From positions 3,615,001-3,679,000 of the forward strand of contig NZ_CP134228.1 of assembly GCF_031656215.1 (NCBI RefSeq): a stretch of DNA of 64,000 bases, in the 5' to 3' direction. Shown piece by piece: positions 4,908 through 36,352 of this stretch (its first letter is position 1; each line of letters begins with the position of its first letter). The notes under the pieces are model-generated. The model saw nothing but the letters and a program-made list of their open reading frames with translations. It did not search any database and was not told the DNA's origin. A program made the translations under genes and the position numbers. The stretch comes from Mesorhizobium koreense. GTDB taxonomy: Bacteria; Pseudomonadota; Alphaproteobacteria; Rhizobiales; Rhizobiaceae.

Positions 4908-4919
4908 GGCATCACCGCA

Positions 4920-8633: not shown

Positions 8634-8649
8634 CAGATCATCCTCCTGC

Positions 8650-9051
8650 TCATTTCCTGTCGTTGTCACGTTGCGGTTCCACGAGGGCGACCGCATCGAC
8701 TTCAATTTTATAGCCGTAGTGGAGTTCGGGCACCGGCACGACGGTGCGCGCGGGCCGCGCATCACCTAACAATTCGGCGTAAATGCTGTTGAAGAGCGGC
8801 CAATTCTCTACGCCGACGATATACGCGGTGATGCGCAGGACGGTGTGCGGGGCGGCGCCGGCCTCGCGGATGATCGCCAGCAAATTGCCTAGTGCTTGAC
8901 GCGCCTGGTCTTCGAAACCGAGCGCGGGCTGGTGCGTGCCGTCCGGCAGCACCGGCAATTGCCCCGATACATAGACGATGCCGTCATGCTCGACGGCCTG
9001 GGCGTAGTGACCAGCCGGCCGGGGCGCTCCCGGCGCCGTTATTGTGCGCAT
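8650..9051 (-). CDS. RidA/YjgF/YER057c/UK114 family protein
   Basis: A 133-residue protein of standard family length. It has the GIVYVSGQLPVLPDG strand and a C-terminal ARTVVPVPELHYGYKIEVDA segment; the Arg in PARTVVPV is the conserved substrate-binding arginine. RidA proteins hydrolyse reactive enamines/imines released by PLP dehydratases. GGGAGA precedes the ATG at 9051. It follows a D-threonine-aldolase/D-serine-dehydratase-like gene by 17 bases, a partnership that fits the family role. A second PLP lyase (3720) lies in the next operon. Confidence 0.85.
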   Translation of the reverse strand: MRTITAPGAPRPAGHYAQAVEHDGIVYVSGQLPVLPDGTHQPALGFEDQARQALGNLLAIIREAGAAPHTVLRITAYIVGVENWPLFNSIYAELLGDARPARTVVPVPELHYGYKIEVDAVALVEPQRDNDRK

Positions 9052-9068
9052 TCGCTGTCTCCCATCGA

Positions 9069-10211
9069 TTACCAGCCGCCGAAACGGGGCCAGAGTGCCC
9101 GGATGCTCGGATCGCCGCCCTGGACGACGTGATAGGCGGAATGCTGGGCTGCGGTGGCGCAGGCATGATTGGGCAGGATGCGCAGCCTGGTTCCGACAGG
9201 AAGCTCGGGCAACCGGGCCGCCGAACCTTCGCACATTCCGACGATCCCGTGCTCCTGGTTGGCATCGAGCACCAGGAGACCTTCCAGCACATTTCCCTCG
9301 ATATCGCACACAAGGCCGTATTTCTGGTCGATCGGTTGAGCAGCGGTTCCCCGGTCGCGGGATAGCGCCATCCAGCCTGCGTCGACGATCATCAGCCCCC
9401 TCTCCTTCTGGTGACCGATGACGGTGGTCAGCACGGAAAGGGCGATATCGTCCGGGGTGCAGACTCCGACCCCGGCCTGCACCAGGTCAAAGAACATCGA
9501 GACGCCCGCACGCACCTCCGTTACGCCAGGCAGATCGATATCGGACAGTGCGGTAGGAGTGGAACCAACGCTGACTACGGGCACTTCGTAGCCCGCCTTT
9601 CTGAGCCGGCTTGCCGCGGACACGACAGCGTCCCGCTCGCGCACGGCCCAGGCGTTGATCTCCTCGCGATTGCGGCTCGAATAGCTCGACCCGGCGTGGG
9701 TCAGGACGCCGCGTAATTTCGCGTCCGCAGCAAGGACAGCGGCGATCGCCGCAAGCGTCTCCCCGTCCTCCGGCGCGACCCCGCCCCTGTGGCCATCGCT
9801 GTCGATCTCAATGAGGGCTGGAATGCGCTCTTTCGATACCGCCGAGGCTTTAGCCACCGTCCTCCCCTGCTCGACGGAATCTAGGATCACGGAGAGGTCG
9901 GCACCTTTCCTGCGCAATTCGACCACCCTACCGAGCTTTGCAGGTGCGATGCCAACTGCATAGAGGATGTCCGTCAACCCGGCCGCCGCGAAGACCTCCG
10001 CTTCCTTGAGCGTCGAGACAGTTACGGGATGGGCCAGCGACGGCAACACGCGCCTTGTGACGTCTACGGACTTGGCCGTTTTCAGATGCGGGCGGTAGGT
10101 AACGCCCTTGGCGCCGATCGTCTCGTTGAGGCGACGAACATTCCTGTCCAACCTCTCGAGATCGAGGAGCAGACAAGGCGTCGCCAGTTGAAGGATGCTG
10201 TTTCCGTCCAT
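9069..10211 (-). CDS. D-threonine aldolase / D-serine dehydratase-like enzyme
   Basis: About 380 residues. The N-terminal alanine-racemase fold has the PLP lysine in RPHLKTAKS (about residue 44), and the C-terminal D-serine-dehydratase-like domain has the metal-binding His-x-Cys in PNHACAT near residue 350. Fold-type III enzymes with this layout cleave or dehydrate D-3-hydroxy amino acids using PLP plus a metal ion. The ATG at 10211 is preferred because GAGGTG lies six bases upstream; a GTG at 10220 is in frame but has no better site. It sits 10 bases after the oxidoreductase and upstream of ridA. Confidence 0.82.
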   Translation of the reverse strand: MDGNSILQLATPCLLLDLERLDRNVRRLNETIGAKGVTYRPHLKTAKSVDVTRRVLPSLAHPVTVSTLKEAEVFAAAGLTDILYAVGIAPAKLGRVVELRRKGADLSVILDSVEQGRTVAKASAVSKERIPALIEIDSDGHRGGVAPEDGETLAAIAAVLAADAKLRGVLTHAGSSYSSRNREEINAWAVRERDAVVSAASRLRKAGYEVPVVSVGSTPTALSDIDLPGVTEVRAGVSMFFDLVQAGVGVCTPDDIALSVLTTVIGHQKERGLMIVDAGWMALSRDRGTAAQPIDQKYGLVCDIEGNVLEGLLVLDANQEHGIVGMCEGSAARLPELPVGTRLRILPNHACATAAQHSAYHVVQGGDPSIRALWPRFGGW

Positions 10212-10221
10212 GATGTGCACC

Positions 10222-11217
10222 TCAATCTCGAGGAGTCAGGACGATCTTGCCCTGAACGCGGCCATGACGAAGCGCCTCCAGCGCTTCCGCGAAACGAGAC
10301 AAGGGTAGCACCTGGGAAATCAATGGGTTCAGTTTACCCTCCTCCCAAAGATGGAATATCTCCTCCTGGGCGGCACGGACCAGTTCCGGCGTGCGCTCGC
10401 GATAGTCCGACCATTGAAGGCCGGAAACCGCGATGTTCTTGACCAGAAGGTAGTTGGCCTTGATGGTGGGGATCGTCCCGGACGCGAAGCCGATGATCAC
10501 CATGCGTCCACGCCAGGCCATCGCACGCAGTGCGGCGGCATTGGCGTCGCCTCCGACGGGATCGATCACGATATCGCAGCCCTTGCCGCCCGTGACCGCA
10601 TAAACGGCCTCGCGCAGGCCGTTGTGAAGGTCCTCCATCGCCATGTCGATCACATGATCGCAGCCGATCCGTTTGGCCGCATCGACATTGTCCGCGCCGA
10701 GAGCACCTCCTATGACAACGGACGCGCCCAACGCCTTGGCAAGCTGGACCGCCGCCGACCCTATGCCGCCCGATGCCCCCAGCACGAGCACCGACTGGCC
10801 GGGGACGAAGCCCGCTCTTTCGATCAGTGCGAAATGGGACGTTTGGTAGACCAGCCCGAGGGCCGCGCCGACCTCGAACGGCATGGAAGAAGGCATCCGG
10901 AAGCAGGAGAGGGCGGAAACCCGGAGTTTCTGAGCATATGCGCCATACTCCACCTGGACGGAAACGGGATCATCGATCTTCAGTTCGTTTACGCCGGCGC
11001 CGACAGCCGAAATCCTGCCGGCTGCCGCCTTTCCCGGCGAAAACGGCAAAGGCGGTTTGACCTGGTATTTGCCTTCCATCACCAGGATGTCCGGAAAATT
11101 CGCCTCGCTTGCGGCAATCTCGACAACCACTTCGCCCTCTCCGGGAACCGGGTCGTCGACTTCGACGATCTTCGCCTGTTGCAGCGGCGCAAACCTCTCG
11201 ACCAGCACGGCCTTCAT
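10222..11217 (-). CDS. Zinc-independent quinone oxidoreductase, MDR family
   Basis: A 331-residue medium-chain dehydrogenase/reductase without the structural-zinc cysteines. The NADPH-binding fingerprint VLVLGASGGIGSAAVQLAKA lies near residue 145. Such enzymes reduce quinones, enones or enoyl thioesters. ATG at 11217 has GGGAG seven bases upstream; an in-frame GTG at 11223 overlaps a remnant's stop codon. In a CoA-ester catabolic operon it could act as an enoyl reductase or clear reactive enones; the substrate is unknown. Confidence 0.85.
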   Translation of the reverse strand: MKAVLVERFAPLQQAKIVEVDDPVPGEGEVVVEIAASEANFPDILVMEGKYQVKPPLPFSPGKAAAGRISAVGAGVNELKIDDPVSVQVEYGAYAQKLRVSALSCFRMPSSMPFEVGAALGLVYQTSHFALIERAGFVPGQSVLVLGASGGIGSAAVQLAKALGASVVIGGALGADNVDAAKRIGCDHVIDMAMEDLHNGLREAVYAVTGGKGCDIVIDPVGGDANAAALRAMAWRGRMVIIGFASGTIPTIKANYLLVKNIAVSGLQWSDYRERTPELVRAAQEEIFHLWEEGKLNPLISQVLPLSRFAEALEALRHGRVQGKIVLTPRD

Positions 11218-11219
11218 CG

Positions 11220-11399
11220 TCACTCTCCCGTCTTCTTTGTCTCGAGGATGTTGTCGCCGAGCAGTTCCGAATTGTGCCGGCCCAGGCGCGGAGCGATCGC
11301 GCTTGCTCTATTTACGCGGAAGGAAGATGCGGCTGGAACAGGCAAGAGGGTGGAGGAGTCGGGGGCGCCCAGCCCTGCCAGGACGCCTTCGGTCACGCC
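11220..11399 (-). pseudogene. 3' remnant of a CaiB/BaiF CoA transferase
   Basis: Reading the minus strand from 11399 to the TGA at 11222-11220 gives about 59 residues with the C-terminal signature of family III CoA transferases, including PVPAASSFRVNRAS followed by APRLGRHNSELLGDNIL. The intact paralogue at 17979 ends in a similar PPRLGQHQSEI. The rest of the gene is missing: upstream, the same bases encode the end of the 3-hydroxyacyl-CoA dehydrogenase-like protein. This looks like the tail of a second transferase lost by deletion. Confidence 0.7.
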
Positions 11400-12022
11400 T
11401 CGCTCCGCTTCTTGGCGACCACTGCACGCCGCGCCGGCATATAGGCGGCCTGACCGGTCATCTCGTGAATGGCGAGACTTATGTCATGATGGCGCGCAAG
11501 ATCACCCCGCACGACCCGCTCGATCAGGCCGTCAGGATAGCCAAGTCCCATCCGGCAAGTCATGTCCATCGCCTCGGCGGTGGCGAGACCTTCATCGAGG
11601 AAGCGCAGCGCAGCATTGTATTTCGGGCGGACCAACCGGTCGATGATACGGCCGGGCTGATCCGCGCATACCACCACCTCGAAGCCCGCGGCCTCGAACA
11701 TCAACCGCGCCGCTTCAATGGCCTCTTCGGAACTCTTCGGCTGGCGGACCAGCTCTACCAGATTGGTCGGTGCGTCCAGACCATTGCGGTAACGCGAGAA
11801 CCCCAGCACGTTCGAGCCTTCGTTGCCGGATTGCTCGCCCGTATGGACGCCGAGACACTCCGCGTCGAGTTCGACAAGGACGGCCGCACGGCTTGAATCC
11901 TCACACGGTTCGCCGCCGAGATGGATCAGGACCTCCGCGCCATGAACGGATCTGGAAAGGAACTCGTCGCCCGGAGGAAAGGACCTGCTCGGCCCAGTCT
12001 GGATGATTTCGTAATCCCTCAT
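11393..12022 (-). CDS. 3-hydroxyacyl-CoA dehydrogenase C-terminal-domain protein
   Basis: A 209-residue protein. Residues from about 95 onward match the C-terminal dimerisation domain of 3-hydroxyacyl-CoA dehydrogenases (PGRIIDRLVRPKYNAALRFLDEG, then MGLGYPDGLIERV), but the N-terminal half has no GxGxxG nucleotide-binding motif and looks like a degenerate Rossmann domain. It therefore probably cannot bind NAD alone. The ATG at 12022 has GAGG close upstream. It follows the complete dehydrogenase by four bases, so the two may form a heteromer. Confidence 0.75.
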   Translation of the reverse strand: MRDYEIIQTGPSRSFPPGDEFLSRSVHGAEVLIHLGGEPCEDSSRAAVLVELDAECLGVHTGEQSGNEGSNVLGFSRYRNGLDAPTNLVELVRQPKSSEEAIEAARLMFEAAGFEVVVCADQPGRIIDRLVRPKYNAALRFLDEGLATAEAMDMTCRMGLGYPDGLIERVVRGDLARHHDISLAIHEMTGQAAYMPARRAVVAKKRSEA

Positions 12023-12026
12023 ATCC

Positions 12027-12896
12027 TCACCCCTGCCGGGAATAGTCATAAAAGCCCCTGCCGGACTTGCGGCCGAGATGGCCCGCGGCCACCATGCGCC
12101 GCAGGAGCGGCGGGGCGGATGCTCGTGGATCGAGCGTAATGGGATAGAAGGCCTCGCAGAGACGGACCTGCGTATCGAGTCCGATAAGGTCGATCAGTTC
12201 GCACGGCCCCATCTTGTAGCCGAGCCCGGTCTTGATCGCCTTGTCGATATCGGCAGCGCTGGCAAGGCCCGCCTCGACCGCTCGGATGACGTCGTTGTTG
12301 AACGGCACGAGAAGCGCGTTGAGGATGAAGCCGGGCTTGTCCTGGGTCTCGACGGGATGCTGACCCGCTTTCAGCGTCCAGGCCCACGCCGCGTCGAACG
12401 TTTCATGGGACGTGTTGATGCCGCGCGACATCTCGATCAGCTTCATGAGCTGCGCGGGAAGGCAGAAATGCATTCCGACGACACGATCCTCGCGGCCGCA
12501 GCCGGATGCGATCTCGGTGATCGACAGGGTCGATGTGTTGGAGGCGAAAATCGTCTGCTCGCCGCAGATCCCGTTCAGTTGACGCAGCAGGTCTTGCTTC
12601 GTGGCGAGGTCCTCATAAACCGCTTCGATCACGAGATCCGCATCGGCAAGGTCGCCGAGATCGACGGTGGGCAGCATGCGCGCCAAGGCTTCCTGGCGCC
12701 CCTCCTCCGTCATCCGCCCGCGCTCGACCGACTTCGAAAAGAACATAGCCGCCTGATCACGACTGCGATCAAGGCCTTGCCGGGCAACGTCGTGGCAAAC
12801 CGTTTGGAAGCCCGCTCGCGCCGCCACCAACGCGATGCCTGCGCCCATCGTACCGCCTGCTCCGCAGATCGCGACTTTCCTGATGGTGGCATTCAT
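12027..12896 (-). CDS. 3-hydroxyacyl-CoA dehydrogenase (3-hydroxybutyryl-CoA dehydrogenase type)
   Basis: A 289-residue protein, the full length for the short monofunctional family. The NAD-binding motif is CGAGGTMGAGIA at 11-22, and the catalytic His lies in VVGMHFCLPAQLMKLIE (about 143). The C-terminal domain contains DKPGFILNALLVPFNNDVI. It oxidises 3-hydroxyacyl-CoA to 3-ketoacyl-CoA in beta-oxidation. Its ATG overlaps the TGA of the acyl-CoA dehydrogenase (ATGA). In this operon it would act on the ring-opened dicarboxylyl-CoA. Confidence 0.87.
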   Translation of the reverse strand: MNATIRKVAICGAGGTMGAGIALVAARAGFQTVCHDVARQGLDRSRDQAAMFFSKSVERGRMTEEGRQEALARMLPTVDLGDLADADLVIEAVYEDLATKQDLLRQLNGICGEQTIFASNTSTLSITEIASGCGREDRVVGMHFCLPAQLMKLIEMSRGINTSHETFDAAWAWTLKAGQHPVETQDKPGFILNALLVPFNNDVIRAVEAGLASAADIDKAIKTGLGYKMGPCELIDLIGLDTQVRLCEAFYPITLDPRASAPPLLRRMVAAGHLGRKSGRGFYDYSRQG

Positions 12897-14059
12897 CTTG
12901 TCAAGAAACTCCGTCCGATCAACTGCCGGTGAATCTGGTTGGTGCCTTCCCAGATCTGCGTGATCTTGGCATCGCGCATCAACCGCTCGGCGCGATAGTC
13001 GCGGCAATAGCCGTAGCCGCCATGAAACTGGACGCATTCGGTGGCCATCCGCATGGCGAGATCGGACGCCCTCAGTTTCGCCATCGACGCTTCCAGGCCG
13101 AAATCGGGTTCGCCGGCCTCCACCAGGTCGGCCACATAATCGATCCAGCGTTCCACCAGGGCCAGTTCCGTGGCGAGATCCGCCAGCGTGAACTGGTTGC
13201 CTTGAAATTCCAGGATGCGGCGACCTGACTGCGAACGGTCGTTCGCATAGGCGACCATGTCGTTGAACGCTGCCCGCGCTATCCCCCTGGCGTGGGCCGC
13301 AACGGAAGGGCGCGACTTGTTGAGCGAAGCCAGCAGAATTCCGAGGCCGTCGCCCGGATTGCCGATAAGATTGGCGCGCGGCACTCGAGCCCTCTCGAAC
13401 GCCAGGGCGCAGGTCGATGAGGCGCTGTGCCCCATTTTCCGCTCCTTGCCGATCACTTTGAGACCGGGCGTATCCTTTTCCATGACAAGGACGGATATCG
13501 CCTTCTTCGGGTCGTCGATCTCCGACCATTTCCCGAAAAGCAGAATGCGATCGGCGACATCGCCGTTTGTGATGAAGGTCTTCGAGCCTTTGACGACGAT
13601 CTCGTCCCCTTCCGGCGTGAAGCTCGTCTTCATGCCGGTTGCATCCGAGCCCGCGGTGGGTTCGGTAATGGCCAGCGCTCCCAGCCCGCCCTCGGCGATA
13701 CGGGGAAGGAGCCTTGCGCGCTGCTCGTTCGTTCCGAAGTCGATGAGCGGCTTCATGCCATGGAAGCTGGTGGCATATATGATGCCGGTGGAGGCACACG
13801 CCTCCGAGATGATCGAGACCGTTTCGAGATAGAGGCGAAAGCTCATCGGCGCGCCCCCATATGCTTCGGGCACGAAAATCGCATTCAGCCCGATCGAATT
13901 GAGCGCCTCGACATTGGCCCACGGAAATTCCGCGCTTTCGTCATAGCGCCCGGCGTTTGGAGCGATCACCTGTTCGGCTACCCGCCTCACCTGGTCGAGC
14001 ACAAGCCGCTCTTCCTCGTTCCACCTGCGGCTGGCATGAATGCGTTCAAGAAGCTTCAT
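12893..14059 (-). CDS. Acyl-CoA dehydrogenase (AliB-like by context)
   Basis: A 388-residue flavoprotein of the acyl-CoA dehydrogenase family. FAD/substrate-binding motifs ALAITEPTAGSDA and KTFITNGDVAD are present, and the catalytic Glu is in IWEGTNQIHR near the C-terminus; GGYGYCRDY is the usual FAD-contact region. It introduces a 2,3 double bond into an acyl-CoA and passes electrons to ETF. The start at 14059 overlaps the SDR stop by one base (TGATG). With CoA ligase, hydratase, SDR and a BadI-like hydrolase alongside, it would desaturate an alicyclic carboxyl-CoA. Confidence 0.87.
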   Translation of the reverse strand: MKLLERIHASRRWNEEERLVLDQVRRVAEQVIAPNAGRYDESAEFPWANVEALNSIGLNAIFVPEAYGGAPMSFRLYLETVSIISEACASTGIIYATSFHGMKPLIDFGTNEQRARLLPRIAEGGLGALAITEPTAGSDATGMKTSFTPEGDEIVVKGSKTFITNGDVADRILLFGKWSEIDDPKKAISVLVMEKDTPGLKVIGKERKMGHSASSTCALAFERARVPRANLIGNPGDGLGILLASLNKSRPSVAAHARGIARAAFNDMVAYANDRSQSGRRILEFQGNQFTLADLATELALVERWIDYVADLVEAGEPDFGLEASMAKLRASDLAMRMATECVQFHGGYGYCRDYRAERLMRDAKITQIWEGTNQIHRQLIGRSFLTR

Positions 14060-14763
14060 CAGTGCTTCATCCCCTGGCCGCCGTCGACATAGATCGTCTC
14101 GCCCGTGAGGAAGGCGATCTTTTCCGAAAAGATTGCCCCGACCAATCTGGCGACTTCGTCGACCGTTCCGGCCCGATGCAACGGCACACGTCGCTCGAGC
14201 CACTGGCGCACCTTCGGTCGGGCAAGGAACTCCTTGTTGAGATCGGTCTCGATATATCCCGGCGCGACATTGACCACGGATATGCCGTCATCCGCCCATT
14301 CGACCGCCATGCAGCGTGTCATGGCGGCGACGGCCGCCTTGGATGCGCAATAGGCGAGATTGTCCGGTACGCCCAGCTTGTCGAAGAAGGAGCCGATATT
14401 GACGATCGTGCCTCCCTTCCGGCCCAGGAAGGGATAGGCCTCTCGCGCGGTCACCATGACGGAAGTCGCATTGAGCGACATGACCGACTCGAAGTCCGTG
14501 GTTTTGAGCGAAGCCGTCGGGCCACCCATGTGCAGCCCCGCATTGTTGACAAGGCCGATCAGCGTAGCCGAACGGCCGATCTCCGCGAACGTTGCGGCCA
14601 CGGCTTTTTCATCGGTCAGGTCGCAAGCCACGCCCTCCCCCACCGTCGTCGCCCCCGAACGGGAAAGGCAGACGACATCGAAGCCGCGCCTGTCGAGATC
14701 CGCGGCGATGGCTGCGCCGATACCTTTGCTCGCGCCGGTGACGATGATGCGTTCCTCAGCCAT
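14059..14763 (-). CDS. Short-chain dehydrogenase/reductase (BadH-like role)
   Basis: A 234-residue classical SDR: TGASKGIG cofactor motif at 8-15, NNAG at about 79, catalytic Tyr and Lys in YCASK at about 141-145, and the APGYIETDL loop. By position between hydratase and dehydrogenase it would oxidise a 2-hydroxycycloalkanecarboxyl-CoA to the 2-keto form, as BadH does in cyclohexanecarboxylate catabolism. Overall similarity to BadH has not been tested. It overlaps the enoyl-CoA hydratase stop by eight bases. Confidence 0.85.
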   Translation of the reverse strand: MAEERIIVTGASKGIGAAIAADLDRRGFDVVCLSRSGATTVGEGVACDLTDEKAVAATFAEIGRSATLIGLVNNAGLHMGGPTASLKTTDFESVMSLNATSVMVTAREAYPFLGRKGGTIVNIGSFFDKLGVPDNLAYCASKAAVAAMTRCMAVEWADDGISVVNVAPGYIETDLNKEFLARPKVRQWLERRVPLHRAGTVDEVARLVGAIFSEKIAFLTGETIYVDGGQGMKH

Positions 14764-15526
14764 CCTGGAATTTGGCCTTTCTCTTCTGCTCGAAGGCGGC
14801 CATGCCCTCCTCGGCATCCGCCGTCTGGTAGGCCAGCGTGGAAAGGTCGGCCTCGATCCTTAGTCCGGCATGGAGCGGATTCTCCCACGCTCTCTGTACG
14901 GCCCGGCGCGCAAGGTTCAGGACAGGAAGGCTGTACCCGCAGAAAGATTGCGCGAACTCGGCCCCCGCGTCCGTCAGTGATCCGTCCACCACTCGGTTGA
15001 CGAGGCCGATGCCCAGCGCCTCCTCCGCATCCACCGTACGGCCGGTCATGATCATCTCCAGCGCGCGGCTTTCTCCGACCAGCCTTGGCAGCCTTTGTGT
15101 TCCGCCGTATCCGGGAACAAGGCCGAGTTTGATCTCCGGGAGTCCGAATTTCGCCTTCCGGGAGGCCAGCCGGAACGTGCAGGCAAGAGCCAGTTCGAGA
15201 CCTCCGCCGAACGCATAGCCATTGACGAGCGCGATCGAAGTTACCGGAAGATCATCGAGCTTGGCGAAGACCGACTGGCCGAGCTCGGCTCCCCGCTTCT
15301 GTTCAGACAGGGAACGATTGCGCAACTCCTTGATATCCGCGCCCGCGCAGAAAGCCTTTTCGCCCGCACCGGTGAAGAAGAGCGCGCGAATTTCAGGCCT
15401 GGCCGCCACCGCGTCTATCGCTTCTCCGATCTTCCGGATGATCGTGAAGGAAAGCGCGTTGAGCACCTCCGGCCGGTTGAGTGTGATCGTGGCGAAATCG
15501 CCATGAACCGCTAGTTCGACGGTCAT
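14756..15526 (-). CDS. Enoyl-CoA hydratase (BadK-like by context)
   Basis: A 256-residue crotonase. Both catalytic glutamates of hydratases are retained, in GGGLELALA and FGLPEIKLG, and the oxyanion-hole segments CAGADIKEL and YAFGGGLE are intact. It should hydrate an enoyl-CoA to a 3-hydroxyacyl-CoA. The ATG at 15526 overlaps the stop of the ligase (ATGA); a longer reading to 15661 lies inside the ligase and is discarded. It would act after the acyl-CoA dehydrogenase and before the SDR. Confidence 0.87.
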   Translation of the reverse strand: MTVELAVHGDFATITLNRPEVLNALSFTIIRKIGEAIDAVAARPEIRALFFTGAGEKAFCAGADIKELRNRSLSEQKRGAELGQSVFAKLDDLPVTSIALVNGYAFGGGLELALACTFRLASRKAKFGLPEIKLGLVPGYGGTQRLPRLVGESRALEMIMTGRTVDAEEALGIGLVNRVVDGSLTDAGAEFAQSFCGYSLPVLNLARRAVQRAWENPLHAGLRIEADLSTLAYQTADAEEGMAAFEQKRKAKFQDG

Positions 15527-17148
15527 TGCGCAGCCGCCTTCCGTTCCTGGTAGCGGATAGCGGTCGGCTGCAATTCGCCCTTGGCGACCATGGCGCTCAA
15601 TTCGCGTTTCAGGATTTTGCCGCTCGGCGTGAGAGGGAAGCTCTCCAGTCGCAGAAACCATTCCGGCATGTCGAATTTCGACAGCCCCTCGCGAGCCAGA
15701 TGGTCGAGCATTTCCTCGCCACCGATATCGCCTATGATTGCAATGCAGACGCGCTCGCCAAGGCGTTCATCCGGAATGGCGAAGGCGGCGGCCTTGGCCA
15801 CGCCAGCATGGGTCAGCGACAGCGCCTCGATCCGCGCAGGGTAGATGTTGTGACCGCCGCGGATGACGAGGTCCTTGAGCCGCCCTTCGATGGTCAGATT
15901 GCCGGCCTCGTCCAGAGAGCCGAGGTCGCCGGACAGGAACCATCCGTCCTTGTTGAAACTGCTCTCCGTCGCTAGCTGATTGCTGAAATAGCCGAGCATG
16001 AGGGCGGCGCCACGTCCTCCTATCTGCCCCGTCTGACCCGCGGCAAGAACCTTGTCGGGATCTTCGGTGTCGAAAATCCGGACCTCGTAGCCCGGCCCTC
16101 CCCGACCGCAGGTCGTGGTCCATATCCCGGCGGCATCGTCCGGATGCGTGTATTGGTGGGAGGAATTCTCCGTCATGCCATAGACGTTCTGTGGCGTGAT
16201 GCCCTGTCTCACGAAGGCTTCAGCCACGACCGTCGGGATCGGGGCGCCGGCCATGTAGAAAACCTTGACCGCACCGAGCGATGAAAGTCCCCTCGCCTTC
16301 TGCGCCTGAAGGATGTCCATGGCATGGGTCGGCACGCCCATGACGTAGGTGGCGGCGTTGGATACGATCCAGTCCAGCCGCTCGGTCCCGACCGGGGCAT
16401 CGTCCGTTACCAGAAAGCATCGGGCGATCAGCCATTGGGCGACGGCGACCCAGGCTATGTGATGCGAAAGCGGGCTCAGCGTAAGCAGGACGGCGTCCGG
16501 CCCCAACGCCCAATCGCGCACGAGATCACGGCCGTTGGCGAGAAGCGTGTTGGACGAATGCATGACGCATTTCGGCAGCCCGGTCGTTCCGGACGTGAAA
16601 GCCAGATAGGCGACGCCGTCCGGATTCCGATTATACGGGCGCTCGCTCAAATCGCCCGGCTTGGGAAAGTCTTCCGGCGTGTAGACCTTCCTGAGGAATG
16701 GCAGTTCTCCCAGCATCGCGTCGAAATCGGCTTGCGACCGGTCGGCGCCCCACCCCGCTTCCGTCACGAGGGCTGCGGAGCCGAGCGTTTTCAGCAATAC
16801 GATGATTTCGGCACAGGTGTAGGTGCGATGCAGCGACGGATTGCAGGCGATGCCTTCGCGGGAGCACGCCAGAAAGGCGATGATCGCCTCCGACCTGTTC
16901 GAAAGCCAAAGCGATACCCGATCCCCGGCGACCAGCCCCTGCGCGATGAGATCGTCGGCCATCGCATCGACCCGCAGCCGAAGGTCGGCCCAATCGAGCG
17001 TCGTTCTTCCATCGCGCAACGCCGGCTCACCCGGACGTTCCTCGGACGCTTTGACCAGAAGCGAGTAGAACGTATCTTCCCTCCACAGGCCCGCCTTGTA
17101 GAACGCCATGGCCTTGGCCGGTTCATGCAGGGTGAGAAAGGGACGCAT
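15523..17148 (-). CDS. AMP-dependent acyl-CoA ligase (AliA-like by context)
   Basis: A 541-residue ANL-superfamily ligase. P-loop-like motif FTSGTTGLPK, adenine-binding GMTENSS, hinge GDLGSLDEAGNL...GRLKDL, and the C-terminal catalytic lysine in PLTPSGKILKREL are present. It activates a carboxylic acid with ATP and CoA. The start at 17148 leaves a 7-base gap to the BadI-like gene. It supplies the CoA thioester consumed by the other enzymes; the CoA transferase at 17979 is an alternative activation route. Confidence 0.87.
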   Translation of the reverse strand: MRPFLTLHEPAKAMAFYKAGLWREDTFYSLLVKASEERPGEPALRDGRTTLDWADLRLRVDAMADDLIAQGLVAGDRVSLWLSNRSEAIIAFLACSREGIACNPSLHRTYTCAEIIVLLKTLGSAALVTEAGWGADRSQADFDAMLGELPFLRKVYTPEDFPKPGDLSERPYNRNPDGVAYLAFTSGTTGLPKCVMHSSNTLLANGRDLVRDWALGPDAVLLTLSPLSHHIAWVAVAQWLIARCFLVTDDAPVGTERLDWIVSNAATYVMGVPTHAMDILQAQKARGLSSLGAVKVFYMAGAPIPTVVAEAFVRQGITPQNVYGMTENSSHQYTHPDDAAGIWTTTCGRGGPGYEVRIFDTEDPDKVLAAGQTGQIGGRGAALMLGYFSNQLATESSFNKDGWFLSGDLGSLDEAGNLTIEGRLKDLVIRGGHNIYPARIEALSLTHAGVAKAAAFAIPDERLGERVCIAIIGDIGGEEMLDHLAREGLSKFDMPEWFLRLESFPLTPSGKILKRELSAMVAKGELQPTAIRYQERKAAAQ

Positions 17149-17155
17149 CGCGGCC

Positions 17156-17935
17156 TCAGTGCCCGAATTTCGAACTGTCGGGCTTGCGCCGCTCGGCAAA
17201 ACTGGCGGCCAGTTCTTTCGATTCTTTGGTATCGAGATACTGGCGCAGGAGCAGGTCGTGGGTGACGCGCGAAAGGCCGCTCACGCCGCCATGACGCGCA
17301 TTGAAAGCGGCCTTTATCGAGGCAAGGGCAAACGCGCCCCGATCGGCAACTTCCAGCGCGAACTCGCGTGTCTTCTCTGCGAGTTGATCATCGGGCACCA
17401 CCCTGTTTATCAGCCCCATCGCCAGGGCTTCCGCAGCCGTTATCTTCGGATTGGTGTACCATATCTCCTTGGCCTTCTTCTTGCCGACGAGATCTTCGAG
17501 GTACCAGGTACCGTAACCGGCATCGAAGGAGCCGACCATCGGTCCGACCTGCCGGAAGGTGGCGCTTTCCTTGGCGATCGTGAGATCACAGACGACGTGC
17601 AGCACATGACCGCCGCCGACGGCATAGCCATTGACGCTTGCAATCACAGGCTTCTGCAGCCGATCGATCGCTTCATACATTTCGAGCGCCGGAAGCACGC
17701 CGGCGTATAGCTTGCTGTCCTCCATCCCGTCCTTGCGGCCGCCGACGCAGAAGAATTTGTCTCCCGCCCCCGTCAGGACCACGACGCGCGTGCGCGTCTC
17801 GCGACGGATGTTTTCGATGCACTCCCGGATCTCATGGCACATGGTCTCGGTGAACATGTTCCCGTCGTCCGGCCGGTTGAGCGTGATCCTGGCGATCGGA
17901 CCATCCTCTTCGAACAGTATCTCGCTATAACTCAT
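17156..17935 (-). CDS. BadI/MenB-like crotonase: 2-ketocycloalkanecarboxyl-CoA hydrolase candidate
   Basis: A 259-residue crotonase with the sequence fingerprint of the DHNA-CoA synthase (MenB) / 2-ketocyclohexanecarboxyl-CoA hydrolase (BadI) subgroup rather than ordinary hydratases: FRQVGPMVGSFDAGYG at 127-142 and the KKKAKEIWY stretch just after. Asp138 matches the conserved Asp of that subgroup, and the usual hydratase Glu at the GGG site is replaced (GGGHVL). BadI opens an alicyclic 2-keto ring to give pimeloyl-CoA. The context has no menaquinone genes, and the ligase, dehydrogenase, hydratase and SDR expected before BadI follow directly, so ring cleavage is favoured. Confidence 0.82.
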   Translation of the reverse strand: MSYSEILFEEDGPIARITLNRPDDGNMFTETMCHEIRECIENIRRETRTRVVVLTGAGDKFFCVGGRKDGMEDSKLYAGVLPALEMYEAIDRLQKPVIASVNGYAVGGGHVLHVVCDLTIAKESATFRQVGPMVGSFDAGYGTWYLEDLVGKKKAKEIWYTNPKITAAEALAMGLINRVVPDDQLAEKTREFALEVADRGAFALASIKAAFNARHGGVSGLSRVTHDLLLRQYLDTKESKELAASFAERRKPDSSKFGH

Positions 17936-17978
17936 CGTTTCCTCTCGGTTTTCTGGCGCAACGCGGGATTGAGCGTCG

Positions 17979-19187
17979 CTATCGACAAATCTCGGATTGA
18001 TGCTGGCCGAGGCGCGGCGGCGCGGATCTCGGCCTTGATGCCGCTCCATCTATATGGATGCCGAGCCCAATCTGCGGCACCGGTGTTTCTTCGCCGGCAA
18101 GCGCAAAGAACAGGCCTCGCCGCTGCAGCGCGCGGTCTTCGGCCAGCGCATCGATCGTGTTGATGGGGCCGGCGGGGACCCTCGCAGTGGCAAACCGTTC
18201 CAGCCAATAGTCCCGCGGACGCGTAAGCAATATGGCCTGGATGCGCTCGACGATCTCCTGGCGACGTTCGCGCCTTAGAACATTGGTAGCGTATTCAGGC
18301 ATTTCCGCGATGTCGGTATCTCCGACGGCCTGCCAGAAGCGGCGCCATATCGCGTTATTGCCCAGCCCCAGCGTCATTGGCAGGTCGGACGTCTCGAAAC
18401 TCTGATAGACCGCGATCACGCTGTCGGTGCCCCCGGATCGTGTCGGCACCTCGCCCGATCCCAGATAGGTCGATATGCGGCACGAAAGAAAGCGCGTCAT
18501 GCTCTCGACCAGGCTGACGTCGATCACCCGTCCCTTCCCGCCGCGTTGCCTGTCGAACAGAGCAGCCATCGTCGCCATCGCGGCATCCTGCCCGGCCAGC
18601 ATGTCCGCGGCAGGCGCACCAAGCTTCTGCGGCGCTCCTCCCAGTTCGCCTGTCAGGTCCATGATCCCCGAATAGCCTTCGGCGATCAGATCGTAACAGG
18701 TCAGGTCGGCGCGGTCGCCACTCAAGCCGAAGCCGCTTATGGAAACGAAAATTATATCCGGCCGCACCGCGGAAAATGCGTCATGACCGAGGCCGAGTTT
18801 CTTCTGCACCGTGGGCGGCTGATTGGTCACCACGACATCTGCTTGCCTGGCTAGTTCCAGCAACGTGTCGCGGTCGGCCGCATCCGTCACGTCGAGCACG
18901 ATGCTTTTCTTGTTCCGGTTAACCGCAGTGAACCAGAGCGATTCACCGTTCAGGAATGGCGGCCCCCATGCTCTCGCATCATCGCCATCGGGCTTTTCGA
19001 TCTTCAAGACATCGGCGCCGAAATCCGACAACAGCATGGTCGCGTAGGGGCCGGCGATAGAGGTCGTCAGGTCCAGGACCTTGACACCCGATAACAGCTT
19101 GAAACCCTCTCCCGGCTCAACGGTGGGAAGGTGCCGCAGGGGGAGCCGCTCCGTAGACTCCGAGCGTTCCATCGATTGCTGGATCAT
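17979..19187 (-). CDS. CaiB/BaiF family III CoA transferase
   Basis: About 402 residues. The N-terminal motif VLDLTTSIAGPYATMLLSDF and catalytic-Asp segment APAADMLAGQDA (family pattern D-[ML]-L-A-G) are clear, and the C-terminus ends PPRLGQHQSE as expected. It moves CoA between acids. It is the first gene of the minus-strand operon, with a sigma-54 promoter just upstream; the ATG at 19187 is 27 bases from the predicted transcription start. In-frame ATG at 19172 is an alternative. A remnant of a second transferase lies at 11220. Confidence 0.85.
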   Translation of the reverse strand: MIQQSMERSESTERLPLRHLPTVEPGEGFKLLSGVKVLDLTTSIAGPYATMLLSDFGADVLKIEKPDGDDARAWGPPFLNGESLWFTAVNRNKKSIVLDVTDAADRDTLLELARQADVVVTNQPPTVQKKLGLGHDAFSAVRPDIIFVSISGFGLSGDRADLTCYDLIAEGYSGIMDLTGELGGAPQKLGAPAADMLAGQDAAMATMAALFDRQRGGKGRVIDVSLVESMTRFLSCRISTYLGSGEVPTRSGGTDSVIAVYQSFETSDLPMTLGLGNNAIWRRFWQAVGDTDIAEMPEYATNVLRRERRQEIVERIQAILLTRPRDYWLERFATARVPAGPINTIDALAEDRALQRRGLFFALAGEETPVPQIGLGIHIDGAASRPRSAPPRLGQHQSEICR

Positions 19188-19223
19188 GTTTTCTCTCGTC
19201 CATTCTCCGCCAGTCCGAACCAA

Positions 19224-19239
19224 AGCAAGCGCCGTACCA
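19224..19239 (-). promoter_or_regulatory. Sigma-54 promoter of the CoA-ring-cleavage operon
   Basis: The minus strand reads TGGTACGGCGCTTGCT. This matches the RpoN consensus TGGYACR-N4-TTGCW at every fixed position, with correct spacing between GG (-24) and GC (-12). Predicted start of transcription is near 19214. A divergent sigma-54 activator gene begins at 19357. Confidence 0.8.
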
Positions 19240-19257
19240 ATCCGTTTCGAACACGGA

Positions 19258-19303
19258 CATACAACTGGTGGGCCCATGCTGTGTGCTTTCGATCGGTTGT
19301 ACG
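19258..19303. promoter_or_regulatory. Candidate upstream activator sequence (inverted half-sites)
   Basis: CATACAACTG (19258-19267) and CGGTTGTACG (19294-19303) are inverted copies of CRTACAACYG, 36 bases centre to centre, with a TGGGCCCA palindrome between them (19269-19276). They lie about 45-90 bases upstream of the predicted sigma-54 transcription start, within the usual range for an enhancer-binding protein. Confidence 0.45.
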
Positions 19304-19356
19304 TTCTTCGCGTTTCCTGTATCCCGCACGGTCAGAATGGAACCGCTGTGTCCTCG

Positions 19357-21045
19357 ATGAACACATTGGCCACACCAATAGCTGCGGAAAGCACCAATCG
19401 CTTGAAGATGGGCATCGTCTGTACGGGCGCGGATGGACGCGTCCTCCACGCCGTGGGCATCGGCAAGGAGCCGGCCATCCTGGCGCTGGTTCGTGACCCG
19501 CAATGGGTCCGCTCCGTCAAGGAGAGCAGGCTTGCCTCCCTGAAATTCAACGGACGAAAGCTCGTCCTGCTATGGTGCGATCTGGCGGAAGGCGGCCTGC
19601 TTGCCGTCCGTGAAGCCAGTGGCGACACGGTCTTCGAATTCATCGCGGCGGTGGACTTCGCCTATGACATCTTCGACCATCTGCTGAGCAATCCCTTCGA
19701 CGGCATGACGGTGGTGGACGCCAAGGGGATCGTGCGTTTCATCTCGCCGATACACGAGAAATTCTTCAACCACCAACATGGCGAAGCATCAGGCAAACCG
19801 GTGCAAAAGGTGATCGAGAACACCCGCCTCCACAAGATCGTGCAGACGGGCAAGTCCGAGGTCGGTTTCACGCAACGGATGGGCGGCACCAATCGCGTCG
19901 TCAGCCGGACGCCGATTTTCCGCAATGATGAGATCGTCGGTGCGATTGGACGCGTGATGTTCAAAGGCCCCGAACAGCTCGAAGAACTCAACCAGCGCAT
20001 CAACTCCCTGCAGAACGAAGTGGAATTCTACAAGCGCGAGGCCGACGCGATGCGCCGTCAGGACTTCGGCATTTCCAACATCATCGGCACGAGCACCCGT
20101 ATCGAGGAATTGAAAAAGGATATCATCCGCGTTGCACCGCTCGATGTTCCGGTGCTGATCATAGGCGAGAGCGGGTCGGGCAAGGAACTGGTCGCGCAAG
20201 CGTTGCACCGGCTCAGTTCAAGGCGCACGCGCAGCATGATCATGATAAACGCTGCCGCGCTTCCTTCGACCCTCGTGGAGAGCGAGTTGTTCGGCTATTC
20301 CGCCGGAGCATTCACGGGTGCGCATCAGAAAGGGCACGCGGGAAAATTCGAGCAGGCAAACGGCAGTTCGCTGTTTCTCGATGAAATCGGCGACATGCCG
20401 CTGGAGGTGCAGGCCAAGCTCCTAAGGGTGCTTCAGGACGGCTCCGTCGAGAAGCTCGGCGGCAGCAAACCGATAAAGGCCGACTTCCGTCTCATATCGG
20501 CCACCAATCGGGATATCGACGCCATGGTGGGGCGCAACGAGTTCCGGCTCGACCTCTATTACCGCATCAGTCCGGTCGTGCTGAGGGTTCCGCCCTTGCG
20601 CGATCGGCGTGAAGACATCCCGCTTCTGGCCGAGGAGTTCCTGCAGAATTTCGCCGAACGGCACGGCCGCCCGCGCTGTCATCTAAGTTCCGAGGCTGTT
20701 GAATATATGCAGAGCCAGGGTTGGCCCGGAAATGTGCGCCAATTGAAGCATGAGCTGGAAAGGGCGGCGATATTCAACAGCGGAGGAACGATCGACCGTG
20801 CCACGCTTCAACGATCGCTGGAGGGTATGGAGCCCTCGCCGCAGGCTGCTGCCATTCCGGCCCTCACCGTTGACGCGAGATCGGATGGCTTCGCACTCAA
20901 GGATCGTCTGCAGAAGGTCGAGGATGATCTGATCCAGGCCACCATGACCCGCTGTCGCGGCAACAAAAAGAAAGTGGCCGAAGAGCTTGGCATCTCTCGG
21001 TCGTATCTCTACAAAAAACTCGCCGAAATCGGCGGTTACGACTGA
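19357..21045 (+). CDS. Sigma-54-dependent transcriptional activator (PAS, AAA+, Fis)
   Basis: About 562 residues. A PAS-type sensor lies at about 108-202, a short coiled-coil linker at 206-235, and an AAA+ domain at 240-470 with Walker A GESGSGKE (270-277), the sigma-54 contact loop GAFTGA (317-322) and Walker B LFLDEIGD. A C-terminal Fis helix-turn-helix (RGNKKKVAEELGISRSYLYKKL) ends the protein. There is no receiver domain, so it probably senses a metabolite. The ATG at 19357 is chosen because longer readings run back into the divergent CoA-transferase gene; an ATG at about residue 18 is also possible. Its likely target is the operon at 8013-19187. Confidence 0.88.
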   Translation: MNTLATPIAAESTNRLKMGIVCTGADGRVLHAVGIGKEPAILALVRDPQWVRSVKESRLASLKFNGRKLVLLWCDLAEGGLLAVREASGDTVFEFIAAVDFAYDIFDHLLSNPFDGMTVVDAKGIVRFISPIHEKFFNHQHGEASGKPVQKVIENTRLHKIVQTGKSEVGFTQRMGGTNRVVSRTPIFRNDEIVGAIGRVMFKGPEQLEELNQRINSLQNEVEFYKREADAMRRQDFGISNIIGTSTRIEELKKDIIRVAPLDVPVLIIGESGSGKELVAQALHRLSSRRTRSMIMINAAALPSTLVESELFGYSAGAFTGAHQKGHAGKFEQANGSSLFLDEIGDMPLEVQAKLLRVLQDGSVEKLGGSKPIKADFRLISATNRDIDAMVGRNEFRLDLYYRISPVVLRVPPLRDRREDIPLLAEEFLQNFAERHGRPRCHLSSEAVEYMQSQGWPGNVRQLKHELERAAIFNSGGTIDRATLQRSLEGMEPSPQAAAIPALTVDARSDGFALKDRLQKVEDDLIQATMTRCRGNKKKVAEELGISRSYLYKKLAEIGGYD

Positions 21046-21101: not shown

Positions 21102-21818
21102 GTGAATTTGCCCACCCGGCTTGAGCCGCTATTCGACCAGATTTACGAGATTCTCTGGTCAAACATCATCTCCGGAGAGATTCAGCCGGGTTCGCGCATG
21201 AGCGACCTCGAATGGTCCGGCAAACTGAACGTCAGCAGGACACCGGTCCGGGAGGCGATGCGGAAGCTTCAGCAGGACGGGGTGCTTCTACCCCTGAACC
21301 GCGGCGGATACGAGGTCCGGCGCGTGACGGCGGAGGATGTGCGCAATCTGTATCGTTGTCGCGCCGCCTTGGAAGCGCTGGCGACACGCGATGCGGTGCA
21401 GAATGGCACCCCGGCCCACTTCGGCAAGCTGCGGGCGATCGTCGAGGAGAGCCAGAAGGCGCTCGACACGGGTAATTTCAGCCGCGCCTTCGAGCTGAAC
21501 ACGCGGTTCCACGACCAGATCCTGGCTTGCTCCAAGAACACCTATCTCAAGAGAATGCTGAAGGATCTTCGGCGGATGATCCTGTTCGCGCGCTCCACTC
21601 TCATGAGCGCGGCAAGCAGTCGCCAATTCACCGAGCCGTACATCAAGCACCTCCATCGCGTCCAGGTCGACCACCGGGAGGTGCTGGAGGCGATAGAGAA
21701 AAGAGGGGAGCAGGCGGCTGCCATGCGGATGCAACAGCACATCGAGAATACCAGCGGCGACATGAGCATCCTTGCAACAAGCTTGCTCGGCGGAAAGCCG
21801 CAGGAGAGCGACGCCTGA
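21102..21818 (+). CDS. GntR-family regulator, FCD subfamily
   Basis: A 238-residue protein with an N-terminal winged helix (IISGEIQPGSRMSDLEW, then LNVSRTPVREAMRKLQQDGV at about 42-61) and an all-helical FCD effector domain (about 85-225). Metal-binding acidic and His positions such as NTRFHDQIL and HREVLEAIE are visible. FCD regulators usually repress catabolic operons and are released by an organic acid. The GTG start at 21102 has GGAGGT seven bases upstream. It stands between the sigma-54 activator and a second GntR gene and is a candidate for binding the GTATAC operators. Confidence 0.87.
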   Translation: MNLPTRLEPLFDQIYEILWSNIISGEIQPGSRMSDLEWSGKLNVSRTPVREAMRKLQQDGVLLPLNRGGYEVRRVTAEDVRNLYRCRAALEALATRDAVQNGTPAHFGKLRAIVEESQKALDTGNFSRAFELNTRFHDQILACSKNTYLKRMLKDLRRMILFARSTLMSAASSRQFTEPYIKHLHRVQVDHREVLEAIEKRGEQAAAMRMQQHIENTSGDMSILATSLLGGKPQESDA

Positions 21819-21910: not shown

Positions 21911-22864
21911 ATGAAAGCAGGATCGGCGTCAGCCGCCACAAGCAGCCGTAGAGCGATCACGGAGCCTCTTGCGGGGCAGATCCTCAACTACATCCGTTCC
22001 GAAGTCCTGCGGCCCGGCACCCATCTCCCAGCGCAGCACCTTGCCGACCGCTTCCATGTCTCGCGCTCGCCGGTCAATCGCGCTCTGGTCCTGCTGGCCA
22101 AGAGCAAAATCGTGACGCATGAAAGCGGACGGGGCTTCCTGGTGGCTGCCGGGGCTCATTCGGAGACCGGGCAGCATGGGAACGTGGCAGGTCCAGACCC
22201 GCTGGCGTCGGTTTATTTCACGATCGTCAACGATCGACTGCAGAGTGAACTGGGCGATCGGATATCGGCGCGTTCGCTCCAGATGCGATACGGTCTGACC
22301 AGAGGCCAGGTCACGCAATTGCTGGACCGGATGGTGCGCGAGGGATGGGCGGAGCGACGTCCGGGCTATGGGTGGATGCTCGCTTCCGTCATCACCACGC
22401 CCGAAGCCCTCGAGAAAAGCTATCGCCTGAGGCTTGCGATCGAGCCGGCCGGATTGCTGGAGCCGAGTTTCAATCTACCGCAGGACGTTGCAAGGCTTGC
22501 GCGCGAACGCGAGCAGGATCTTCTGAGAGGAGGCATCGAGGCCCTGCCGCCCGACGTCCTCTACGAACGAGGCGTCCAGTTCCACGAGATGCTCGCAGAA
22601 GCCTCGGGCAACCCGTTTTTTCTGGAATCATTGCAGCGTGTGAACCGGATGCGGAGGCTCTTCGCCTACCGCACGATGGACAATCGCGACCGCTACTACC
22701 GACAGGTCAGCACTCACTTGCGTATCCTCGACCTGCTGGCGGAAGGGCGCAATGCGGAAGCCGCCGATACGATGAGGGGCCACCTCCTCGAGGTGCTTGA
22801 AAGCATGCGCGGTCTGGCAATGGAAATTGCACGGGTTGGGAACGAGCGGAAGGCAGGCAAATGA
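21911..22864 (+). CDS. GntR-family regulator with two winged-helix domains and FCD
   Basis: A 317-residue protein, about 80 longer than a normal FCD regulator. Residues 13-80 form a GntR winged helix (HLADRFHVSRSPVNRAL). Residues 100-160 form what looks like a second winged helix (ARSLQMRYGLTRGQVTQLL, then a WAERRPGYGWML wing). An FCD domain follows from about 165. The gene overlaps the amidohydrolase start by four bases, so the pair is co-transcribed. The function of the duplicate DNA-binding domain is unknown; it may read bipartite operators. Confidence 0.82.
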   Translation: MKAGSASAATSSRRAITEPLAGQILNYIRSEVLRPGTHLPAQHLADRFHVSRSPVNRALVLLAKSKIVTHESGRGFLVAAGAHSETGQHGNVAGPDPLASVYFTIVNDRLQSELGDRISARSLQMRYGLTRGQVTQLLDRMVREGWAERRPGYGWMLASVITTPEALEKSYRLRLAIEPAGLLEPSFNLPQDVARLAREREQDLLRGGIEALPPDVLYERGVQFHEMLAEASGNPFFLESLQRVNRMRRLFAYRTMDNRDRYYRQVSTHLRILDLLAEGRNAEAADTMRGHLLEVLESMRGLAMEIARVGNERKAGK

Positions 22865-25986: not shown

Positions 25987-27171
25987 TCAGCGCCAAAATC
26001 CCCGCGCGAGTTCCAGCACCTTCTGGACGTCCGCGTCATTGTTGTAGGCATGGAACGAAAAGCGCAGCATGCCGCGACGTATCGTCAGCCGGACGCCGTT
26101 TGCGGTGAGATGCTCGTAGAACCGGATCATCTCGCGATCCCGGGTCGCATCGTGCTCGTCCGATAATTCGCGCCCTACCGACACGATATGCGAGCGTGCG
26201 TCACGGGTCGGACACCTGAATACGGGAAAGCCGCACTCAGCCAGACCTTCCGCGAGACTGGCTGCCAATCCGCAAGCGTATCTTTCGATGGATGCGGTAC
26301 CTACGCCAAGGATGGTTTCGAGGGAGCGCTCGAGTGCGATCGCCGCGATATAGTTGAAATTGCCGACGTCGAAGCGTTTCGCGCCGTCGGCAAGCCTGTA
26401 GTCTTGCAGGTCGCCGCTCGATGCCTCGTGCCCCGACGCGGCCTTTACCCCCATACGCGAAAGATAAAGGGGCGTGAGCCCATTGGCGATCTCCCGCCGG
26501 ACATAGAGAAACCCCGCCCCGTACAGGCCCAGCAATCCCTTCTGGGTCGACGAGGCCAGCCCGTCGATCTGCAGTTCCTGCACATTCGTATCGAGAATAC
26601 CGATCGACTGCGCCGCATCGACAATCAGGAGGACGCCACGCTCCCGGCAATGACGGCCGAGTTCGGCGACCGGAAAGCGGAACCCCGGCGAAAATGAAAT
26701 GGTCGAGAGCGTAACGACGCGGGTCTTTTCGTCGATCGTCTTGATGATCCGCTCGAGCGGAATCGCGCCGCTGTCCGGCTCTACCGTCTTGATCTCGATG
26801 CCCCTCGCCTGCGCCAGGCTGTGCCAGGGGAAGATGTTGGCGGGATGTTCCAGCGCTTCGCAAATGACCACATTGTCGCCAGCCTGCCACGGAAGCGCCT
26901 GTGCAAGGGCGTTGATGCCATCCGAGATATTGCGGGTGAAGGCTATCTCGTCGGCCGAGGCGTGAATCAGTTCAGCGATCCGGCTCCGCGCCGTCTCGAC
27001 CCGCTCGAACATCCAGGCCTTGTCGCCCCCATCGAACATCCGTTGTTCAAGATACTGCTCCGCAGCGGCCTTGACCGGGAGTGAGACAAGGCCTCGCGCC
27101 GCCACGTCCAGATAGGTCCATTTCGTGGCCCCCGGAAATTGCGGCCGAAGCGCGTCTATCGAACTGCTCAT
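25987..27171 (-). CDS. Class V aminotransferase-fold PLP enzyme
   Basis: About 394 residues, similar in layout to cysteine desulfurase/kynureninase-type class V enzymes. The PLP lysine is in SSTQKGLLGLYG, and the PLP-contact segments FTRNISDGIN and VDAAQSIGILD are present. The ATG at 27171 lies seven bases after hyuB. It has no SufS-type active-site cysteine loop near the C-terminus that I could identify. Co-transcription with hydantoinase subunits suggests processing of the released amino acid rather than Fe-S assembly. Confidence 0.82.
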   Translation of the reverse strand: MSSSIDALRPQFPGATKWTYLDVAARGLVSLPVKAAAEQYLEQRMFDGGDKAWMFERVETARSRIAELIHASADEIAFTRNISDGINALAQALPWQAGDNVVICEALEHPANIFPWHSLAQARGIEIKTVEPDSGAIPLERIIKTIDEKTRVVTLSTISFSPGFRFPVAELGRHCRERGVLLIVDAAQSIGILDTNVQELQIDGLASSTQKGLLGLYGAGFLYVRREIANGLTPLYLSRMGVKAASGHEASSGDLQDYRLADGAKRFDVGNFNYIAAIALERSLETILGVGTASIERYACGLAASLAEGLAECGFPVFRCPTRDARSHIVSVGRELSDEHDATRDREMIRFYEHLTANGVRLTIRRGMLRFSFHAYNNDADVQKVLELARGFWR

Positions 27172-27178
27172 GGCTGCC

Positions 27179-30921: not shown

Positions 30922-30947
30922 GGCTCTCTCCTGCCAGTTCGTATTCT

Positions 30948-30960
30948 GTATACTGGATAC
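30948..30960 (+). promoter_or_regulatory. GTATAC-type operator upstream of hyuA
   Basis: GTATACTGGATAC agrees at 11 of 13 positions with the site at 33009. The flanking GTATTCT at 30941 adds a partial third repeat. It lies just upstream of the hyuA ribosome binding site. Confidence 0.55.
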
Positions 30961-31031
30961 CTATCTTTCGACCTGAGTGCAAGCCACGATCGGAGGTTTG
31001 CGCTTCCCGAGGTGGTCGCCCTCGTTGGGCG

Positions 31032-34018: not shown

Positions 34019-34020
34019 TG

Positions 34021-34764: not shown

Positions 34765-34767
34765 GTC

Positions 34768-35580: not shown

Positions 35581-35586
35581 GGCCTT

Positions 35587-36330: not shown

Positions 36331-36352
36331 CGACATACCGAATGGAGCCGTC

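Follow-up and report, generated by a model that had tools for sequence, protein, structure and literature searches.

The CoA operon and its divergent activator gene

The window analysed here is a 64,000-nucleotide stretch of the Mesorhizobium koreense genome, in which twelve consecutive minus-strand genes, running from 19187 to 8013, make the originally predicted 12-gene operon plausible. The following features lie in and around the 169-base intergenic region that separates this operon from a divergent activator gene:

8013–18049 (−): remaining operon genes
17979–19187 (−): family III CoA transferase, first gene of the operon
19224–19239 (−): sigma-54 −24/−12 element TGGTACGGCGCTTGCT, read as TGGTACG-N4-TTGCT, ahead of the 12-gene CoA operon
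19258–19304 (no strand): inverted CRTACAACYG half-sites (19258–19267 and 19295–19304), present and unsupported as a regulatory site
19348–19366 (no strand): predicted activator site GTGTCCTCGATGAACACAT, spanning the activator start codon (ATG 19357)
19357–21045 (+): enhancer-binding protein with an N-terminal domain, PAS, AAA+ with GAFTGA and a Fis-type HTH
21102–21818 and 21911–22864: two GntR-FCD regulator genes next to the activator gene

Behind the CoA transferase, the operon encodes a BadI/MenB-like crotonase, an acyl-CoA ligase, an enoyl-CoA hydratase, an SDR, an acyl-CoA dehydrogenase, a 3-hydroxyacyl-CoA dehydrogenase, a 3HCDH-like protein, a quinone-oxidoreductase-like protein, a D-serine-dehydratase-like protein, a RidA protein and an HD protein. 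The first eight of these genes are kept in relatives. No linked relative of the last three (8013–10220, minus strand) was found in the searched loci, and this end may have been added locally. The set of products suggests a CoA-thioester chemistry with a β-oxidation-like ring opening, and the originally predicted alicyclic-ring operon is a reasonable reading, although the BadI-like protein falls under the cut-offs of both the BadI model TIGR03210 (227.2 bits against 467.6) and the MenB model NF005637 (253.3 against 380). Its closest PDB entries are MenB-type enzymes, and the ligase and the SDR likewise score under the cyclohexanecarboxylate-CoA ligase and ChcB2 cut-offs. Among 198 genomes of one family, RpoN was over its cut-off in 62 and the BadI-like protein (E 1e-90) was found in one, counts too uneven to inform on whether RpoN and the operon occur together.

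The product of the divergent gene was recognised by Pfam through Sigma54_activat (PF00158, E 7.9e-64), an AAA lid and the Fis-type HTH_8 (E 9.7e-13), and its GAFTGA motif is intact. The Pfam PAS match remained below its cut-off; a predicted model of the N-terminal part (pLDDT 87) contains a PAS fold, in which residues 115–202 superimpose on the PAS domain 3a0v (Z 12.8, rmsd 1.8, 88 aligned). Fold matches fall mostly on this PAS part, which follows a first N-terminal domain (about residues 18–86). The original prediction has the activator sensing a pathway intermediate, which it may do, but a PAS fold does not point to a particular ligand. Pfam domains, motif and fold model agree with the original description of a PAS-AAA-Fis activator, and the protein scores well under the cut-off of every NCBIfam activator equivalog shown. 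The closest activators among the relatives are those of L017 (70% identity) and L011/L019 (63%). The genome carries one rpoN and no paralogue of the type found inside related loci (see below). Eight of its proteins pass the PF00158 cut-off, four of them strongly; three of these contain GAFTGA, including the divergent activator.

Promoter and its conservation among relatives

Sigma-54 promoters carry a GG-N10-GC core within TGGYRYR-N4-TTGCW. The element at 19224–19239 on the minus strand, originally described as near-perfect, matches this consensus without a mismatch. Taking the C of the −12 GC as position −12, the predicted transcription start lies near 19213, leaving a leader of about 26 bases to ATG 19187. 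The longest CoA transferase ORF begins at 19277; the start at 19187 fits better, because its distance of 52 bases from the −24 T lies within the 47–52 bases of equivalent spacing in five annotated plasmid loci with a CoA transferase as first gene (L115, L116, L117, L121 and L122).

By itself the consensus match is weak evidence. Genome-wide (5.0 Mb) there are 13 exact matches and 24 in the reversed control, which is chance level without enrichment, and the full 19/19 score occurs in 66 of 13,888 control 200-base stretches on one strand, or about 0.4% for the 169-base intergenic region. A crude sigma-70-type scan found no match in that region (four matches in the 15.9 kb scanned, 3.5 in shuffles), and the best IHF candidate there agrees with 7 of 9 positions of the IHF consensus, a full match not being found.

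Position and conservation are more informative. Relatives were collected by a scan with the BadI-like protein, giving 80 named loci in most of which the operon is kept. The window and 25 relatives, some from outside the named set, form 26 distinct loci in which the activator gene and the operon are adjacent and point away from each other; the first gene of the operon varies among CoA transferase, ligase and BadI-like genes. A sigma-54 site of at least 18/19 precedes that gene in 26 of 26 loci, against 279 of 13,888 control 200-base stretches (2.0%) and 7 of 26 on the opposite strand of the same loci; the loci are not phylogenetically independent and the thresholds were chosen while looking at the data. 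Such a site occurs in 31 of 53 further loci (three left out, two with too short an upstream stretch and one with no usable BadI match): in all 16 with an activator gene elsewhere in the locus and in 15 of the 37 without one (Fisher 3.1e-5). Because the same promoter recurs before the same genes in many related bacteria, the case that the predicted promoter is real is convincing. The comparison of loci also lends strong support to the original proposal that the divergent PAS-AAA-Fis protein controls the CoA operon through sigma-54.

Among plasmid loci, a sigma-54 site was found in eight of nine (L115 duplicates L021, and L119 may repeat L053). Five are new divergent loci, with the promoter in 5/5 and the palindrome described below in 4/5; the one locus lacking the site, L123, has no annotated activator. 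In L116 and L122 the operon and the divergent activator lie on large plasmids, which fits horizontal spread. These large plasmids include ones from human-derived isolates of Burkholderia multivorans and Achromobacter denitrificans.

A conserved palindrome and the predicted regulon

A de novo EM palindrome search upstream of the 26 promoters returned the 19-base consensus GTGTCcTCgncGAgGACAC, in a TGT-N11-ACA frame, with a log-likelihood of 225 (32–46 in six shuffled sets). At 10 bits or more it is present in 26 of 26 learning loci and in 3.9% of 4,189 background stretches of 330 bases. In the 53 held-out loci, it lies upstream in 15 of the 31 with a sigma-54 site, being absent at 10 bits from the other 16, and in none of the 22 without one (Fisher 8.7e-5). 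Of the 326 sigma-54-like sites counted over 89 loci, a palindrome stands upstream of 82, compared with 14 for the mirrored stretch and a random mean of 6.6. In most loci it is near the start of the activator gene itself, including L035, L039 and L061, where the activator is located away from the operon.

In the window, the site at 19348–19366 scores 19.0 bits with a matrix from the 25 other loci, and nowhere else in the genome is the degenerate motif matched exactly. Its left half-site (TGTGT) deviates from the consensus. Its centre is 118 bases upstream of the −24 element, so that a conserved palindrome, predicted to be the activator site, stands at enhancer distance from the promoter. Elsewhere in the genome there are six one-mismatch matches, none with a sigma-54 site of score 18 at 40–270 bases.

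Scanning the window with the same matrix gave matches at 7917 (23.2 bits), 19348 (19.0), 56433 (15.0), 32945 (12.7) and 52579 (12.0), so a matrix trained without the window recovers the same sites. Seven sigma-54-like sites in the window reach 18, and four of them (7846−, 19239−, 32845− and 33070+) have a palindrome of at least 12 bits 80–118 bases upstream; random placement gave a mean of 0.11 such pairs, with four never attained in 5,000 trials. The other three sites (17701, 44660 and 47657) lie inside ORFs, and the palindromes at 56433 and 52579 have no sigma-54 site of score 18. A second exact consensus match, at 47642–47657 on the minus strand inside an ABC transporter ORF (47371–49320) and with no palindrome, is probably due to chance. 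The features of the three additional pairs are as follows:

3720–7622 (−): predicted target operon, encoding an NMT1-type binding protein, ABC ATPase, permease and threonine-synthase-like PLP-dependent enzyme
7831–7846 (−): second predicted sigma-54 promoter TGGCATGGGATTTGCG, before the importer/PLP-enzyme operon
7917–7935 (no strand): predicted activator site CTGTCTTCGTCAAGGACAC, the best in the window
25987–32834 (−): predicted target operon, encoding an FAD_binding_2 flavoprotein, hydantoinase A, hydantoinase B and class V aminotransferase
32830–32845 (−): third predicted sigma-54 promoter TGGCATGACATTTGCG
32945–32963 (no strand): predicted activator site TTGTCCGTCTGGACTACAC, common to two divergent sigma-54 promoters, of only 12.7 bits
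33070–33085 (+): fourth predicted sigma-54 promoter TGGCATGCTTGTTGCG
33188–37090 (+): predicted target operon, encoding an SBP_bac_3 binding protein, two permeases, an ATPase and an arylmalonate-decarboxylase/Asp-Glu-racemase-like protein

Transcripts from the promoter at 7831–7846 would begin with a leader of some 200 bases. The true start of the flavoprotein is probably near 32745. The predicted regulon would gain two ABC importers, a flavoprotein and a hydantoinase/aminotransferase operon. When 18 window proteins were compared with the 89 loci, relatives of at least 40% identity were found for the flavoprotein (two loci) and the racemase-like protein (one locus) only; the flavoprotein relatives in L067 and L084 lie beside or near the activator gene. 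Several palindrome-paired promoters in the 89 loci precede genes that resemble solute-binding proteins, judged by their translated starts. A faint hint of a nitrogen-containing substrate comes from the predicted targets, which include hydantoinase, aminotransferase, RidA and PLP enzymes. The accessible parts of PMC9795900, PMC4109377, PMC12583861 and PMC4547698 provide analogies only for naming a substrate. A further sequence, GTATACTGTATCC, and its near-identical complement occur at 7704–7716 and 33009–33021, the only two in the window and both near the extra sigma-54 promoters; one of the two GntR-FCD regulators (21102–21818 and 21911–22864) may use them as an operator.

Very probably, the CoA operon would be transcribed from the sigma-54 promoter at 19239–19224 and activated by the divergent PAS-AAA-Fis protein, which would bind the 19-base palindrome. 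Since three or more further sigma-54 promoters in the window also have such a palindrome in front of them, the same activator would govern a regulon of further uptake and catabolic operons. Bound over its own start codon, it would probably also limit its own expression, a suggestion drawn from the place of the palindrome here and near the activator start in most relatives. From the conservation of promoter and palindrome, their pairing, the intact GAFTGA and the single rpoN, all of which were observed computationally, we infer binding, activation, autoregulation and the transcription start. The promoter being present in 15 of 37 loci with no nearby activator gene counts against this explanation, as do the 16 held-out loci with a sigma-54 site and no palindrome at 10 bits, the unenriched consensus matches, the deviating left half-site in the window, the long leader of the second promoter, the low score at 32945 and the unpaired palindromes at 56433 and 52579.

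Three other explanations were weighed against it. The palindrome might be bound by another regulator, with the PAS protein acting elsewhere or without specific binding. The two GntR-FCD genes adjoining the activator gene and the held-out loci that have a sigma-54 site and no palindrome speak for such a regulator; yet the palindrome stays near the activator start even in some loci with the activator apart from the operon, it is paired with sigma-54 sites at a typical enhancer distance, and the 89 loci contain no relative of either GntR gene at 40% identity, which leaves this explanation unlikely. The original prediction had instead noted inverted CRTACAACYG half-sites ahead of the promoter and placed the activator footprint at 19250–19310. 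Both half-sites exist, as the only two CRTACAACYG matches in the window, but 32% of shuffles contain a 9-base inverted repeat with one mismatch, and 7.7% reach the count of 10-base repeats with two mismatches. The pair is missing from every relative, even from the loci of the closest activators (L017, L011/L019), and the other three palindrome-bearing promoters lack it because the motif occurs in the window at 19258–19304 only. Lying within shuffle expectation and unconserved, the half-sites were rejected as the activator site and it is very unlikely that the activator binds them; the proposed footprint region is most likely wrong, and the conserved palindrome at 19348–19366 is most likely the site to be predicted in its place.

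It is barely credible that the sigma-54 element arose by chance and that a sigma-70-type promoter drives the operon instead. Exact matches no commoner in the genome than in the control would agree with chance, but the conservation at the same place in all 26 divergent loci, the near-constant distance to the first gene and the empty result of the crude sigma-70-type scan argue for the sigma-54 promoter.

Known systems and sigma-54 genes within related loci

Control of catabolic operons by sigma-54 and an enhancer-binding protein is of a known kind, exemplified by XylR, DmpR, PrpR and AtoC. The locus resembles these systems in its −24/−12 promoter, upstream palindrome, AAA+ domain with GAFTGA, divergent gene and predicted autoregulation, and differs from them in the PAS-type N-terminus of its activator, its own palindrome and its CoA-dependent ring-degradation regulon.

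The bad-ali cyclohexane carboxylate clusters of Aromatoleum sp. CIB and R. palustris are described in the accessible part of PMC9795900 as having MarR-type (BadR) or TetR-like regulators. Their logic of CoA ligase, acyl-CoA dehydrogenase, hydratase, SDR and BadI-type hydrolase is shared, whereas the BadI-like protein, ligase and SDR of the window fall under the respective cut-offs, this locus includes family III CoA transferases, and the adjacent divergent regulator is an enhancer-binding protein followed by two GntR-FCD proteins rather than a regulator of the bad-ali types. In the monoterpene ring cleavage (mrc) system of Castellaniella defragrans, a hydratase, a dehydrogenase and a BadI-type hydrolase similarly open a CoA-bound six-membered ring, and MrcE is reported to be 88% identical to a BadI; unlike at this locus, the accessible part of that report mentions no sigma-54 activator, and the BadI-like protein of the window is under the BadI cut-off (PMC4109377). 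In open-licence literature no description was found of this activator family, its palindrome or an RpoN gene within such loci, nor any paper joining 2-ketocyclohexanecarboxyl-CoA hydrolase with sigma-54 or cyclohexane carboxylate with rpoN, an absence that is weak evidence.

By tblastn, 12 of the 80 named loci contain an RpoN gene (L025, L028, L029, L035, L038, L039, L043, L055, L059, L066, L083 and L088), and L051 has an additional divergent RpoN outside this count. PF04552 counts for all 12 genomes, matched by contig coordinates, indicate that seven of them (L025, L029, L035, L038, L039, L043 and L055) yielded no RpoN besides the in-locus one. Part of these seven are drafts or MAGs, L025 and L043 belonging to the MAGs; the L055 copy is a short open frame (194 aa) that may be broken. 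A sigma-54-plus-palindrome promoter precedes the RpoN-like gene in six loci (L028, L035, L039, L043, L059 and L088), and all five of their products that were run, L039 being left out, contain the three sigma-54 Pfam domains. Among the PF00158 proteins found at E 1e-20 in each of the L035, L039 and L029 genomes, the in-locus activator alone has a GxFTGA box (GSFTGA). On an RpoN tree of 40 rows, a 20-row group (100/100) contains each of the 12 rows labelled as in-locus, a set that takes in L013 and leaves out L055 and L051, and the RpoN of the window and the second RpoN of the L028, L059, L066 and L088 genomes fall outside it. On this tree the in-locus label must have changed four times or more, which counts against a single origin and leaves one unsupported.

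Cereibacter sphaeroides has the pairs RpoN1-NifA, RpoN2-FleQ and RpoN3-AprX according to the accessible part of PMC11999139. The likeness lies in a sigma-54 paralogue dedicated to one activator and gene set and in the GAFTGA/GSFTGA box; unlike in C. sphaeroides as described there, the RpoN gene of the 12 relatives, the window excepted, lies within the catabolic locus and is the sole RpoN found in seven genomes.

It is an evenly balanced proposition, drawn from these comparisons, that the activator and its palindrome form a portable sigma-54 module travelling with the CoA-dependent ring-degradation regulon across proteobacteria. In some lineages the module would carry its own sigma-54 gene under the same type of promoter, which would amount to a private sigma factor for one pathway.

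One predicted promoter is thereby extended to a testable regulon with a defined predicted binding site and a corrected footprint target, and uptake and breakdown operons in the window become linked. The relatives suggest that sigma-54, usually global, can shrink to serving one catabolic pathway, which bears on the origin and spread of sigma-54 regulons.
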